A stretch of 49,168 nucleotides of DNA, from NCBI GenBank assembly GCA_013154295.1, contig JAADCS010000154.1, forward strand, positions 1 through 49,168, in the 5' to 3' direction. The notes under the pieces were generated by a model. The model did no database searches. It had not been told where the DNA came from and was given only the letters and a program-made list of their open reading frames with translations. The position numbers and the translations under genes were made by a program. The DNA comes from Thermotogae bacterium (lineage in GTDB: Bacteria; Hydrothermota; Hydrothermia; LBFQ01). Below, one piece after another: positions 1 to 17,379 of this stretch. Numbering within the stretch: the first letter of the stretch is position 1; each line of letters starts with the position of its first letter.

Positions 1-265
<265 letters not shown>

Positions 266-12295: not shown

Positions 12296-12905
12296 TAGTG
12301 GTAGGGTGGCACACGAAAGTCGTATCCTTTGGAAACTATTTGCGTGCATAAAAAGAATTATGATAAATTATATGCTAAATTTATTAACAATTGGAAAATT
12401 CCGCACTATTGTCATCAATATGCATAGTTCTAATTTACCATATAAACTATTGAACGCAAATACTAAAAAAGTCTTACTAAAAACAAAGTACATCTTACTC
12501 TATGCCCATCGCAGCAAATATTACAGTTAGAATTTCCACAATTATTCGGGGTCACTAAGTCTTAAGAGATGTTGTTGATGGTTTCACTTGGAGGCTATTT
12601 GGCCTCACAGTGATACCAGTTCATGTACGGCCATTTTTTCGTTTCTCCAAGAAGCGAAGCAATAGGGTGCTCTTCCCTACATGATGAAAAAGTTCTACCC
12701 TTTCCGTACTACCCGATGGAAGTATTAATTGCCAGACAAACGTGACCCTTATGGAGAAAAAAGAGTATTATTGATATTTTTCATCAAAGTCTCCAACTTT
12801 CTGAATCACAGGCGATTAGCTTCGGTAAATAGGTGCCTTCTACGGAAACGAAAACATTTTTGCTTACCTCAAGGAGACTAAAAGAGTATAATATTTTACG
12901 CACGA
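12296..12905. other. gene-poor stretch, AT-rich left half
   Basis: About 610 nt without a credible gene. Positions ~12330-12540 are much richer in A/T than the rest of the window (runs such as TAAATTATATGCTAAATTTA), suggesting foreign or decayed sequence. The 44-bp palindromic repeat lies at 12578-12621. A 64-codon minus-strand frame at 12784-12978 overlaps the GH99-like gene and is not family-like. Nothing else was recognised. Confidence 0.6.
12578..12621. repeat. 44-bp imperfect palindromic repeat, copy 1
   Basis: Identical over 44 bp to 17200-17243 in the same orientation. The core is a 38-bp dyad: arms GGTTTCACTTGGAGGC and GCCTCACAGTGATACC around loop TATTTG, with 13 of 16 positions complementary. 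On the minus strand the inner 36 nt start GTATCACTG and end GTGAAAC, which resembles a CRISPR repeat, but it occurs singly. Confidence 0.9.
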
Positions 12906-14285
12906 TCAAGGGGAAAACCTCTTGAGAATCCAACGTAAGATAGATGGAAGATAGGGTTGCTCCCTTATACCTTTCCAAAGATATACGATCCTTCCCTTAC
13001 CGAAACGTTTTATTCCCACTACCGTTCCTTCTCTACGATCGTCACGTACCAGATAGAACAGTGTCTCATCTGGATTTTCCAGAGTTCTCAAGCGTTTATC
13101 TCCTACCACAAAGAAGCGGAAGCGGCCCAGTGGTCCTTCAATCATCACCTTCTCTCCCACGGATAGATCTCTGCCGAAACCTATCCTTATGTTGAAGGAC
13201 CCTATAGCTAACTTTTTATCTCCTGAAACGCTTTTGTAAAGAGGATAAGGCCCACCCGCTAAGATCATAGTTCCCCCCGTTCGTACGTATTCCACCAAGA
13301 TGGGAATGAGGTGAGATTGGTAAAGCTCTCCCATGTCGTGTATGAGAATATCACACTTTTTTACATTTTTTGGAGGATGGATTTTGAGTAAGAGGGGTAT
13401 GGGGCTACCTCCCTTAGAAGAATTTCCGGATATATAACACACCTGTCCCTTGAAAGATAGTCTAACGGCTCTAAAATGGAAATGGTGTGATTTGTAATTT
13501 TCCTTAAAGATATAGGCCATGTTTCGCGTAATATCAAGGTAAAGGTTACCGTATCCTTTTGCTGGTTCTATCTGTGTTCCTTCCTCCCATTCGTTAAAGG
13601 AAGTCACAAGAATCACATCCGCACCTGACCCTATAGCTCTCCTCCACTGCCATCTGTAGAACTCACCATTCTTTCTTGAAATCCTGAGTGAGCTTTTACG
13701 CATTTTGAAACCGGGTGAAACCGGAACGGCGCACAATCCTCCGAACGCATGGGTGTAGTCACACCTCTCTTTAAGCGTTTTCACATCGTTTTTGAAGTCC
13801 ACGTAAGAGTGCATGCTACCTGATGTAAAACCGTTGAGAGCGTTGAAGCCATGGAGGAAGAAGATGACGCTGTCGGACAACTTTCTTATGCTCCTCCTTT
13901 GAGATAGGGAGAGTTTGTCGGAGACGCGGGCGTATACGAAGATCACCACTCTCCTATCAATACGTAGAAGGTTCTTACGATCCTTCATCTTTAGGAGTTT
14001 TTTCGCTACCCACGAGGGATCTTGATCCTCTACATAGACGGTGTATTTTAGGCCACACTTTTCCAAAATCTCGCTGACCCTTTTAAACCTTTCCCATCCT
14101 CCGAATACTTCATCTTTCCACAGCGAGATCACAAAACCGTCTATCCCGCTCCCCTTGGCCATTTCACAGTGCCGTCGTACCACAGCCATGTCCAAAGAAG
14201 AGTACTCACCTAGCGAAGGTGTATCTAAAGCCACTCTCCATCGTCCGTCCGTTTTAAACCAGATATAATAGAAGGCCAGAACCAA
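12906..14285 (-). CDS. GH99-like glycoside hydrolase with a C-terminal amidotransferase-like domain
   Basis: 459 aa. The N-terminal ~275 residues resemble GH99/endomannosidase-type barrels: GEYSSLDMAVVRRHCEMAKG, GIDGFVISLW, and VTSFNEWEEGTQIEPAKGYG, whose E-W-E-E pair matches the catalytic ExxE region. The C-terminal ~180 residues (CDILIHDMGELYQSHLIPIL, GGTMILAGGPYPLY, GKGRIVYLWKG) look like the non-catalytic class I amidotransferase-like domain found in some glycosidases. No signal peptide, so probably cytoplasmic. The start is TTG with TAGAAT 6 nt upstream, divergent from the 14338 gene. Target glycan unknown (alpha-mannoside by family analogy). Confidence 0.72.
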   Translation of the reverse strand: MVLAFYYIWFKTDGRWRVALDTPSLGEYSSLDMAVVRRHCEMAKGSGIDGFVISLWKDEVFGGWERFKRVSEILEKCGLKYTVYVEDQDPSWVAKKLLKMKDRKNLLRIDRRVVIFVYARVSDKLSLSQRRSIRKLSDSVIFFLHGFNALNGFTSGSMHSYVDFKNDVKTLKERCDYTHAFGGLCAVPVSPGFKMRKSSLRISRKNGEFYRWQWRRAIGSGADVILVTSFNEWEEGTQIEPAKGYGNLYLDITRNMAYIFKENYKSHHFHFRAVRLSFKGQVCYISGNSSKGGSPIPLLLKIHPPKNVKKCDILIHDMGELYQSHLIPILVEYVRTGGTMILAGGPYPLYKSVSGDKKLAIGSFNIRIGFGRDLSVGEKVMIEGPLGRFRFFVVGDKRLRTLENPDETLFYLVRDDRREGTVVGIKRFGKGRIVYLWKGIREQPYLPSILRWILKRFSP

Positions 14286-14291
14286 TGCCGC

Positions 14292-14297
14292 ATTCTA
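14292..14297 (-). promoter_or_regulatory. -10 box before the GH99-like gene (leaderless)
   Basis: TAGAAT on the minus strand, 6 nt before the TTG at 14285. With the plus-strand TAGAAT at 14326 it forms a compact divergent promoter. Confidence 0.65.
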
Positions 14298-14325
14298 AAG
14301 GTGTAACTGAAAGATGCGATCACCT

Positions 14326-14331
14326 TAGAAT
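14326..14331 (+). promoter_or_regulatory. -10 box before the phospholipase D-like gene (leaderless)
   Basis: TAGAAT, 6 nt before the GTG at 14338. Confidence 0.65.
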
Positions 14332-14337
14332 ATCCGT

Positions 14338-16092
14338 GTGCTTTTCTTACTGATCGGTTTGAGCATAAAGGATCTGCAATACACTACGGATCCTTCCGGT
14401 GACTCTCCCTACCTGGGAAGCAGTGTGAGTGTAACGGGGATAGTCACGGCCGTTTTACCAGATCTAAGGGGATTTTACATCCAGGATAGCGCTGGAGCCT
14501 GGTCGGGTATTTTCGTCTATGCAGGGGTGTCCATGCCCTCCGTTTCGGTTGGAGATAGCGTTTTAGTTTCCGGTGTAATTCAAGAGTACCATGGAAACAC
14601 AGAGATAGTTCTATCCTCCGTGAGTGTGTTGGGAAGTTCTACCCCATTTCCATCCCTGCGAGTTTTGATTCCAGAGGTAGCCGAGAGCCTTGAGGGAGTG
14701 CTTATAAAGGTAGACGGATGGGTGAAAGATGCTTGGATTAACAGGCGAGGCGAGTACACTATAACCGATGGTACGAATGACCTTTTGGCTCTCAATAGGA
14801 ATGCTCTCCTCTACTTTCCCTTCGTGGGGGACAGTTTTGAGATAGTGGGTATTTTGGATCAGAGAGACGATAACTACCGTCTCATACCCCGTTGGGATGG
14901 GGATATAACCCCCTTAGCTTTACGTTTTTACACACCGTTTTTCAATAAAAGCACAGATACGACTCTTTCTCGTGTGGTAAAAAATTACGGCAACGACACC
15001 CTCCGCTTCGTGGTGGCCACCTTCATAGAGAAGGCACGCTACAGCGTTGATGTGGCCATTTACAATCTAACTTCCCAGACTATAACCGATGCTCTGATAG
15101 ATGCCCACGAAAGAGGTGTTAAGGTGCGGGTGATATATGAATCGGAGAACGATAACTCCTACATAGCCCAACTTCGCTCGGCTGGAATTCCTCTGCTGTC
15201 AGATGCTGTGCGGACCGACTACGGATATATGCATATGAAGGTGGTTATAGTAGATGCGCGGGATCCAACACCAGAAAATGACGTGGTACTGGTAGGATCG
15301 TACAACTTTACCGTCTATGCCGATACGCTCCAAATAAACAACCTCACAGCCATAAGAAGTTTCACTGTGGCCCAAAACTTTTTGGCGGAGTTCAACGAGA
15401 TGTGGGGAAGTTCAGGAGACACCCCTGACCCTTCCAACGCCCGCTTTGGGGTTGAGAAAACCCCTAACACCCAAACCTACTTTCCTGACGAGAGTATAGG
15501 GGTATGGTTTCCGCCCGCCGATACCGCCGAAGAAGCCTTTAGGCGCTTCATCCTGGCCACGTCAATCCAAATACACTTTGGCATAAATGTTTTCACCCAC
15601 GATGGAGTGAGGGACGCTTACCGAATACTTCACAACTCTGGCCGCCACATTTTTGGCCTCTTCGATTACTCCGACTGGAATAGCTCCTACTCCGAAAGTC
15701 AGACCATGCGTACATGGGGACCACCGACGGAGGTACATCCTTATCTTAGCGGATACACCTTTCACGACAAATTTGCCATAAGGGACCTCTCGGCCGTGGA
15801 ATTCGGTTCAGTCAACTGGACCTATAACGGTTTCACCCGGAGCGACGAGGTGATGGTTATAATAAACAGTCGCCACTTTGCAGATCAGTTCGTTCAATAT
15901 TTGGGTGCACGTTGGAGAGAAGCAACCGATTCAAGTTTGCCCCTGGGATTAGTGGAAATTCCTCGCAAAGTCCAAAGGTGCAACGATGGGGTCCTCTACA
16001 CAGCCTCCGGCAGAAAGGTGAACGATTTCAAAGCCAAAGGTATATATTTCATGAAATGTGGTCGAAAAATACAAAAAATCTTAAAAATGTGA
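14338..16092 (+). CDS. exported OB-fold/phospholipase D-like protein with type IX-like tail
   Basis: 584 aa. A short hydrophobic N-terminus (MLFLLIGLSI) may be a signal peptide. Residues ~30-190 are an OB-fold like the one in extracellular nuclease YhcR (VTGIVTAVLPDLRGFYIQDS). Residues ~215-545 carry two HKD-type PLD motifs: HMKVVIVDARD with GSYNFT, then HDKFAIRDL with GSVNWT. The last ~55 residues (DGVLYTASGRKV ... GIYFMKCGRKIQKILKM) match the sorting-tail pattern. Likely a secreted nuclease or phospholipase; nuclease is favoured by the OB-fold. The start GTG is fixed by the TAGAAT box. Its stop overlaps the nth start. Confidence 0.82.
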   Translation: MLFLLIGLSIKDLQYTTDPSGDSPYLGSSVSVTGIVTAVLPDLRGFYIQDSAGAWSGIFVYAGVSMPSVSVGDSVLVSGVIQEYHGNTEIVLSSVSVLGSSTPFPSLRVLIPEVAESLEGVLIKVDGWVKDAWINRRGEYTITDGTNDLLALNRNALLYFPFVGDSFEIVGILDQRDDNYRLIPRWDGDITPLALRFYTPFFNKSTDTTLSRVVKNYGNDTLRFVVATFIEKARYSVDVAIYNLTSQTITDALIDAHERGVKVRVIYESENDNSYIAQLRSAGIPLLSDAVRTDYGYMHMKVVIVDARDPTPENDVVLVGSYNFTVYADTLQINNLTAIRSFTVAQNFLAEFNEMWGSSGDTPDPSNARFGVEKTPNTQTYFPDESIGVWFPPADTAEEAFRRFILATSIQIHFGINVFTHDGVRDAYRILHNSGRHIFGLFDYSDWNSSYSESQTMRTWGPPTEVHPYLSGYTFHDKFAIRDLSAVEFGSVNWTYNGFTRSDEVMVIINSRHFADQFVQYLGARWREATDSSLPLGLVEIPRKVQRCNDGVLYTASGRKVNDFKAKGIYFMKCGRKIQKILKM

Positions 16093-16760
16093 AACATTCA
16101 CTACGATCATTCCTAAAAATTCTTGAAGAGGTTTATAATAGCCTTCCAGAGGACGAAGCCCCTATAAAACTTATGGCTAAGGTAAAGAGGCGATCACCCT
16201 TCCATGCCTTGATAACTACCATGTTGAGTGTGCGCTCAAGAGACGGGGTAACGCACCGGGTTGCTGCTCGACTCCTCAAAGAGGCCCCTACACCGGAGGA
16301 TCTATGTAGGATGCCCCTTAAGGAGGTTGAGAAGATTCTGCGACCCCTGGGGTTTTATCGCCAGAAGGCCAGGAACATCAAGGAGGCCGCCTGCCGAATA
16401 ATAAGTGAATACTCCGGCCAAGTGCCCGATACTCTTGAAGAACTTCTAAAGTTCAGGGGCGTAGGTAGGAAGGTAGCCAATATCGTACTTTACAACGCCT
16501 TCGGTAAGCCAGCTGTTGGGGTGGATACGCACGTCTTTCGCATCGTTAAAGATAGATGGGGGCTTTTACCGGATGCCAAAGAGCCGGAGGAGGTTGAACG
16601 GTTTCTGATGGAGAACTTGCCCAAGAACATGTGGGGCAAAGCTAACCGATATATAGTGGCCTTTGGCCAAGCCATATGTAAACCTGTAAGACCTCAGTGT
16701 GACACCTGCCCTCTTAGAAAAGAATGCCCCTATCCACACCGAAGTTCCGATCAGATATGA
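16089..16760 (+). CDS. nth: endonuclease III
   Basis: 223 aa, usual family length, from the GTG at 16089 that overlaps the upstream stop (GTGA). The longer open frame upstream is antisense-frame noise over the PLD gene. Helix-hairpin-helix LLKFRGVGRKVANIVL carries the catalytic Lys and GVDTHVFRIV the catalytic Asp. The C-terminal iron-sulfur loop C-x6-C-x2-C-x5-C is intact (CKPVRPQCDTCPLRKEC). Bifunctional DNA glycosylase/AP lyase for oxidised pyrimidines. Translational coupling to a secreted protein is odd and probably reflects compact gene packing. Confidence 0.95.
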   Translation: MKHSLRSFLKILEEVYNSLPEDEAPIKLMAKVKRRSPFHALITTMLSVRSRDGVTHRVAARLLKEAPTPEDLCRMPLKEVEKILRPLGFYRQKARNIKEAACRIISEYSGQVPDTLEELLKFRGVGRKVANIVLYNAFGKPAVGVDTHVFRIVKDRWGLLPDAKEPEEVERFLMENLPKNMWGKANRYIVAFGQAICKPVRPQCDTCPLRKECPYPHRSSDQI

Positions 16761-16936
16761 AAATACGGCTCCGTGGGTCTCTGCTATATTTTTCAATCTC
16801 GTTTACTCGCGCACCTCTTACTTGGAGGAGAATCGGTTCCCCAAATTTCATCGGCGCAGAGCTAAGAAAGAGAAGGTGGCAAATATCGTACTCAACTACT
16901 GATCAGTCCGCTAAAAGGCAATTGATACATAGCGAG

Positions 16937-17008
16937 AAAGAGAGCCAACGACCACTCCGAGGTCGGGAAAGTAGGGAAAGCCTTATGTCAAACTCCTTGG
17001 CTCTCTTT
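16937..17008. repeat. 72-nt inverted-repeat element, possible structured RNA
   Basis: AAAGAGAGCCAA (16937-16948) and TTGGCTCTCTTT (16997-17008) are perfect 12-nt inverted copies. Directly inside the left arm CGACC (16949-16953) can pair with GGTCG (16961-16965). The remaining ~31 nt of the interior are purine-rich and unpaired. No U-tract and no target-site duplication flank it. It could be a small RNA, a processing stem or a remnant of a MITE-like element. Confidence 0.5.
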
Positions 17009-17199
17009 ACCCTATCTTCTCCCAAGCATCCCATCGCCTATCCAGTGATCTAATACTCTTTTACCACATAATCGTTCTTCCTGGTGTATGACTTTTTAAG
17101 GAAGTAAGGAAGTATGAGATTTTCAAAAAATCTTTCATTCTCTGCAATCTTGGGAAAATTGTTGCAAGTGCGCACAAACAGCTCGCAGTAGATCATGAA

Positions 17200-17243
17200 A
17201 TGGTTTCACTTGGAGGCTATTTGGCCTCACAGTGATACCAGTT
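17200..17243. repeat. 44-bp imperfect palindromic repeat, copy 2
   Basis: Exact match to 12578-12621 in the same orientation, in the non-coding region upstream of rsmE. The flanks beyond the 44 bp differ completely from copy 1, so the unit is sharply bounded. Confidence 0.9.
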
Positions 17244-17379
17244 TAGTGCTGTTAATTTCCCTCCGCCTTCTTCATATCTACCCCCACTCTCTCACTACCA
17301 ATCCCAAACCTTCCCTCAATATACGTTATGGGCTGTTTTGAGGGAGAAATTGTAATGAAAGAGAAACACCTTACCTCCA

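Follow-up and report, generated by a model that had tools for sequence, protein, structure and literature searches.

A dispersed palindrome in a Hydrothermota genome is probably the hairpin core of a small MITE-like element

Results

The window analysed here is a stretch of 49,168 nucleotides, contig JAADCS010000154.1 of a Thermotogae bacterium assigned to the Hydrothermota. It carries the 44-mer ATGGTTTCACTTGGAGGCTATTTGGCCTCACAGTGATACCAGTT twice, identical and on the same strand, with the two starts 4622 bp apart; no such match arose in 100 dinucleotide shuffles. Each copy contains a 38-bp dyad with 13 of 16 arm positions matched and a loop of 6 nt, which folds strongly relative to shuffled sequence both as RNA (-21.6 kcal/mol, z -5.7) and as DNA (-11.6, z -6.3). 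Copy 1 is flanked by genes resembling Colicin_V/CvpA and GH99, copy 2 by genes resembling endonuclease III and RsmE, each in a stretch of ~590 bp that holds no credible gene (Table 1); there is no ORF of at least 80 aa inside the 12578-12771 part of the window. An earlier, sequence-only reading of this DNA had described two identical 44-bp units ~4.6 kb apart, a dyad of this size, pairing and loop able to form a strong hairpin, and long non-coding stretches around both copies, all of which is borne out. It had also called the surroundings divergent. The flanks do differ, but they are not random: they are the right arm (R) and the left arm (L) of one dispersed element, and a BLAST search with the consensus of that element located both of its halves in the window, the palindrome (P) plus R at copy 1 and L plus P at copy 2.

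Table 1. Coordinates of the features discussed in the text. Unprefixed positions are those of the window.
Feature	Location	Strand	Description
23S rRNA gene, 5' part	1..258	-	cut off by contig end
Stretch without credible gene, copy 1	12313..12905		~590 bp
Core P, copy 1	12578..12621	+	dyad 12580-12617, loop TATTTG; covariance model hit E 6e-15
R arm joined to copy 1	12622..12771	+	12577-12771 (P+R) 82% identical to element consensus
End motif (inverted-repeat end, TAATACTC type), right end of copy 1	12749..12770	-	5 mismatches; alignment shows GAGTATTAT end
Stretch without credible gene, copy 2	16761..17357		~590 bp
Likely remnant of IS630-type transposase C-terminus	16884..16958	-	separated by ~90 bp from the L arm of copy 2, on its left; over 55 bp, 84% identity to tail of the IS630-type copy on contig C12; ends in CAGTCCG-type end
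L arm joined to copy 2	17048..17199	+	17048-17243 (L+P) 81% identical to element consensus
End motif TAATACTCTTTTACCACATAAT, left end of copy 2	17051..17072	+	1 mismatch; reversed-pattern control 0 in genome
Core P, copy 2	17200..17243	+	dyad 17202-17239; covariance model hit E 1e-14
Type I-B cas cluster, cas2-cas4-cas1-cas8b1-cas7	L033:163-4779		contig C152
P copy beside CRISPR array, sister genome G001	L159:20-630		
Orphan protein family loci	L040:1627-2295; L008:1-190 (-); L014:1665-1868; L057:1783-2130; L168:2467-2859		

The palindrome is a repeat of the genome at large. The window belongs to a MAG of 1.97 Mb (G000; 169 contigs, 93% complete, 6% contamination), in which 38 places match the palindrome at up to 3 mismatches and the reversed control matches none. 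A covariance model search returned 148 strand hits; as both strands of a palindrome are frequently hit, these correspond to about 100 places. This is the genome-wide count that the sequence-only reading had proposed. Copies were read as DNA stretches around the search hits, and 104 distinct sites resulted; a few of these are diverged and three belong to a sister genome. Among the five other genomes of the genus, the sister (G001) has a few copies and the remaining four have none, and no copy was found in any other genus among 60 relatives searched at up to 3 mismatches. Across GTDB contigs an exact, narrow pattern gave nothing and a degenerate pattern led to a single MAG, Thermotogota bacterium L_MaxBin.116, whose copies match places in G001. 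Viral contigs, plasmids and phages gave no palindrome match, and a search of Rfam gave nothing at gathering for the palindrome, the best sub-threshold match being at chance level. We conclude that the repeat family is real and restricted to this bacterial lineage; its sequence is new and its kind ordinary, such elements being common in bacteria.

Three of the 104 sites fall inside an ORF of at least 150 aa (~97% outside); of positions drawn at random from this DNA, 70% do. Neighbouring genes are convergent at 23 copies, co-directional at 36 and divergent at 17, similar to the background, and the lack of an orientation preference speaks against a role as terminator or promoter. Such a role was rejected on this absence of positional bias, and copy 1 shows no terminator match and no T-tract terminator. 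Contig ends are found within 700 bp of about 29 copies, against an expectation of about 12. This enrichment indicates that the neighbourhoods of the copies are repetitive and that the element explains part of the fragmentation of the MAG. Close pairs are scarce, with about 4 within 400 bp among ~100 places and none abutting. Since the copies are mostly single, the genome does not hold the hundreds of copies in BIME-like pairs that the sequence-only reading had named as the mark of a REP element.

All-against-all comparison of the copies revealed a 40-bp core, P, common to all of them, and weaker shared sequence extending to about -140 and +220. Alignment of the R-armed copies gives an R arm of ~165 bp. 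The outer ends consist of TAATACTCTTTTACNNCATAAA and its reverse complement, found at 22 places when up to 3 mismatches are allowed, with 0 places for the reversed control; they lie mostly 60-240 bp from a palindrome and point toward it. Full copies such as L055, L054, L088 and L051 are arranged as end-L-P-R-end with both ends present and a length of ~335 bp (range of full copies, ~335-365 bp). Where copies are complete, their ends would fit a TA target, and no longer duplication is visible. The full-length element profile also matches itself on the opposite strand. The element consensus has 47 BLAST matches in G000, nearly all of which include P, and matches to the arms nearly always carry P and join it at a fixed point. 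Complete L-P-R copies number 7-9, L-P copies 20-21 and P-R copies 14, the remainder having other flanks; about half of the copies have no recognisable arm.

The core is conserved better than the arms. Mean pairwise identity among the R-armed copies is 0.88 for P versus 0.70 for the R arm, and among the L-armed copies 0.87 for P versus 0.68 for the L arm. Nearly all copies have GGTTTCACTTGGAGGC as the left half of P, and GGTWTCACTGTGAGGC or GGTWTCACTCTGCGGC predominate in the right half when this is read on the opposite strand; each half-site is thus kept separately, with CTTGG on the left and CTGTG or CTCTG on the right. No covariation was detected in the palindrome among 77 distinct cores (13 doubly changed cells versus 19 in shuffles), and shuffling does not lower the frequency of paired cells. 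The near-constant halves and the lack of covariation show that in P the sequence of each half, including the mismatch, is maintained, rather than pairing as such. The lack of covariation also led us to reject an RNA role of the palindrome. The R arm contains one small conserved hairpin and the L arm none.

Left and right arms occur in different combinations across P. One further module on the left (U2) and one on the right (D2) were defined from copies on contigs C86, C104, C131 and C152. All four left/right combinations are present (L-R, 7; L-D2, 2; U2-R, 2; U2-D2, 2), and every class includes one copy or more with strong scores for both modules. The strong mixed copies are L033 for L-D2 (59 and 89 bits) and L035 for U2-R (131 and 100 bits), while the second member of each of these two classes rests on one weak module (13-14 bits). 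Both L035 and L033 are seeds of the U2/D2 profiles, and their high scores on those modules are therefore partly by construction; the shared sequence itself is plain. This four-gamete result shows that arms have been exchanged at P. Recombination at the hairpin, or template switching there, accounts for it, the main caveat being assembly chimeras at repeats: in a MAG of 169 contigs with 6% contamination, some of the combinations could be such chimeras.

The sequence-only reading had seen a CRISPR repeat in one face of the palindrome. This resemblance is refuted by about 100 dispersed copies, none of them arrayed, and by a CRISPR repeat of the genus that is unrelated in sequence. Four congeners have arrays of the 30-mer GTTTGTAGCCTACCTATGAGGGATTGAAAC or its variants. 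G000 has no match to GTTTGTAGCCTACCTATGAGGGATTGAAAC, and a GAAAC-period scan of this 93%-complete genome found no CRISPR array; the lack of any matching array in the genome had been named beforehand as counting against CRISPR. A type I-B cas cluster is present on contig C152, with no array found in the assembly. In the sister MAG, one P copy lies just outside a GTTTGTAGCCTACCTATGAGGGATTGAAAC-type array, adjoining its truncated last repeat; its position beside but not within the array indicates that the palindrome and the CRISPR repeat are different things. The idea that the copies are solitary CRISPR repeats or array remnants draws on the ends (GTTTCAC...GTGAAAC) and on the type I-B cas operon of the genome, but it is almost certainly wrong. 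The likeness to type I-B repeats is superficial and confined to those ends, whereas the palindrome is dispersed and never arrayed, has a longer stem, carries long arms on many copies and matches no CRISPR RNA family in Rfam.

A RAYT/TnpA-like transposase, which the sequence-only reading had suggested looking for, is absent: Y1_Tnp (PF01797) has 0 matches in the 93%-complete G000, while control genomes were positive. An IS630-type DDE_3 gene on contig C12 has CAGTCCG-type ends and was rejected as the parent of the element, as these ends differ and no element motif lies nearby. Among the transposases examined (Y1_Tnp, IS630-type), none has the ends of the element. Synteny comparison for a 4.6-kb insertion showed that none of the five relatives keeps the gene order of G000 upstream of rsmE; they share only ~67% protein identity, and no empty site was found in them.

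Discussion

The palindrome is present in about 100 dispersed, intergenic copies and is set in an element with defined ends and arms, in which the core is conserved better than the arms and the arms are exchanged at the core. We interpret it as the hairpin core of a small, non-autonomous, MITE-like dispersed element mobilised in trans by a transposase, a reading to which we assign a probability of about 0.6. A full copy of ~335 bp comprises an inverted-repeat end, the L arm, the 40-44-bp palindrome, the R arm and the matching end reversed. The dispersal and anatomy of the element suggest that it is mobile, and its spread would be the work of a transposase that acts in trans on the ends, the hairpin or both. 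Most copies would since have lost or exchanged one or both arms, probably when dispersed copies recombined, or templates were switched between them, at the hairpin that they share. Persistence of the core may be due to a protein that recognises its sequence and not its pairing alone, or to homogenisation by gene conversion. Of the two window copies, one is a right half and the other a left half of this element.

Prokaryotic MITEs have been reviewed (PMC10969869), with Chunjie of Geobacter, QMITE2 of Coxiella, ERIC and RUP as examples. The element resembles them in its size below 500 bp, inverted-repeat ends, mostly intergenic position, stable hairpin and tens of copies, many of them truncated; truncated MITEs in turn resemble REPs (PMC10969869). 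At ~335-365 bp it stays below the length limit of about 500 bp and has no coding gene, and its terminal inverted repeats stand at 22 places versus 0 in the control. It differs from MITEs in that its best conserved part is the internal palindrome and not the ends, in that left and right arms are exchanged there, and in that neither a parent IS (Y1_Tnp and IS630-type examined) nor a target duplication was found. Like REPs of the GTAG and CGTC superfamilies (PMC3733652), the palindrome is short, extragenic and imperfect, is dispersed in about 100 copies and falls in the class of 20-40-bp multicopy palindromes, and CGTC-type REPs likewise have no dedicated transposase (PMC3733652). Unlike REPs, it has no GTAG or CGTC tetranucleotide tag and no RAYT/TnpA, it forms few BIME-type dimers or clusters, and it has a larger element around it. 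The REP-type alternative of the sequence-only reading therefore holds for a short, intergenic, palindromic unit in many copies, and fails on the tags, on the transposase and on the longer MITE-like element in which the unit lies. In our best reading the element functions in the manner of a MITE whose core is REP-like; strict membership of neither class is established.

It is also conceivable, if somewhat unlikely, that the palindrome itself is the mobile unit, an untagged REP-like palindrome of a new kind, which a tyrosine (HUH) transposase or another one would move, with the arms as older neighbouring repeats in which it tends to lie. The size class, the imperfect stem with its conserved internal mismatch, the intergenic placement, the many copies, the better conservation of the core and the sister-genome copies without recognisable arms all agree with this. 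However, neither foot bears the GTAG or CGTC tag by which REPs are defined (PMC3733652), the genome has no Y1_Tnp gene and few close pairs, and arm matches nearly always come with the core, joined to it at a fixed point. Strong and separate conservation of both half-sites would fit a selected site of protein binding or RNA processing as well, such as that of a nucleoid protein, a regulator or an mRNA-end hairpin. We consider this clearly unlikely, given that the copies show no promoter, terminator or convergent bias, that copy 1 has no T-tract terminator, that no positions were seen shared with the sister genome and that four congeners have no copies.

The window itself invites another explanation. 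Its P-R and L-P halves are in direct orientation, and if the two P copies were joined, exactly one full element would result. Together with the occurrence of four out of four arm combinations, this would fit an active site-specific recombination joint, at which crossovers insert, excise and exchange arms or whole segments. The window would then bear the footprint of a circle: the 4.6-kb GH99-PLD-Nth segment would have entered as a circle with a full L-P-R element, leaving a half-element at each border. We regard this as highly improbable. There is no linked recombinase; one-armed copies are common everywhere, so that an R half next to an L half can be coincidence; and the gene order of the rsmE region is not kept in the genus, so that no empty site can be read. 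On inspection, the order of end motifs does not fit an integron attC site either.

These results define a repeat family that is specific to its lineage, within an uncultured bacterial group, and they remove a false CRISPR lead. Arm exchange at a conserved hairpin provides a usable case for the origin of one-armed MITEs and of REP-like cores.

A family of orphan proteins, 222 aa long in G001 and with no match in Pfam, adjoins the palindrome at three loci of G000 and at one of the sister genome. DNA of this family is 88-92% identical over 207 bp between the two genomes, the rsmE proteins of which are only ~67% identical. On contig C12, a relative adjoins an IS630-type transposase gene.
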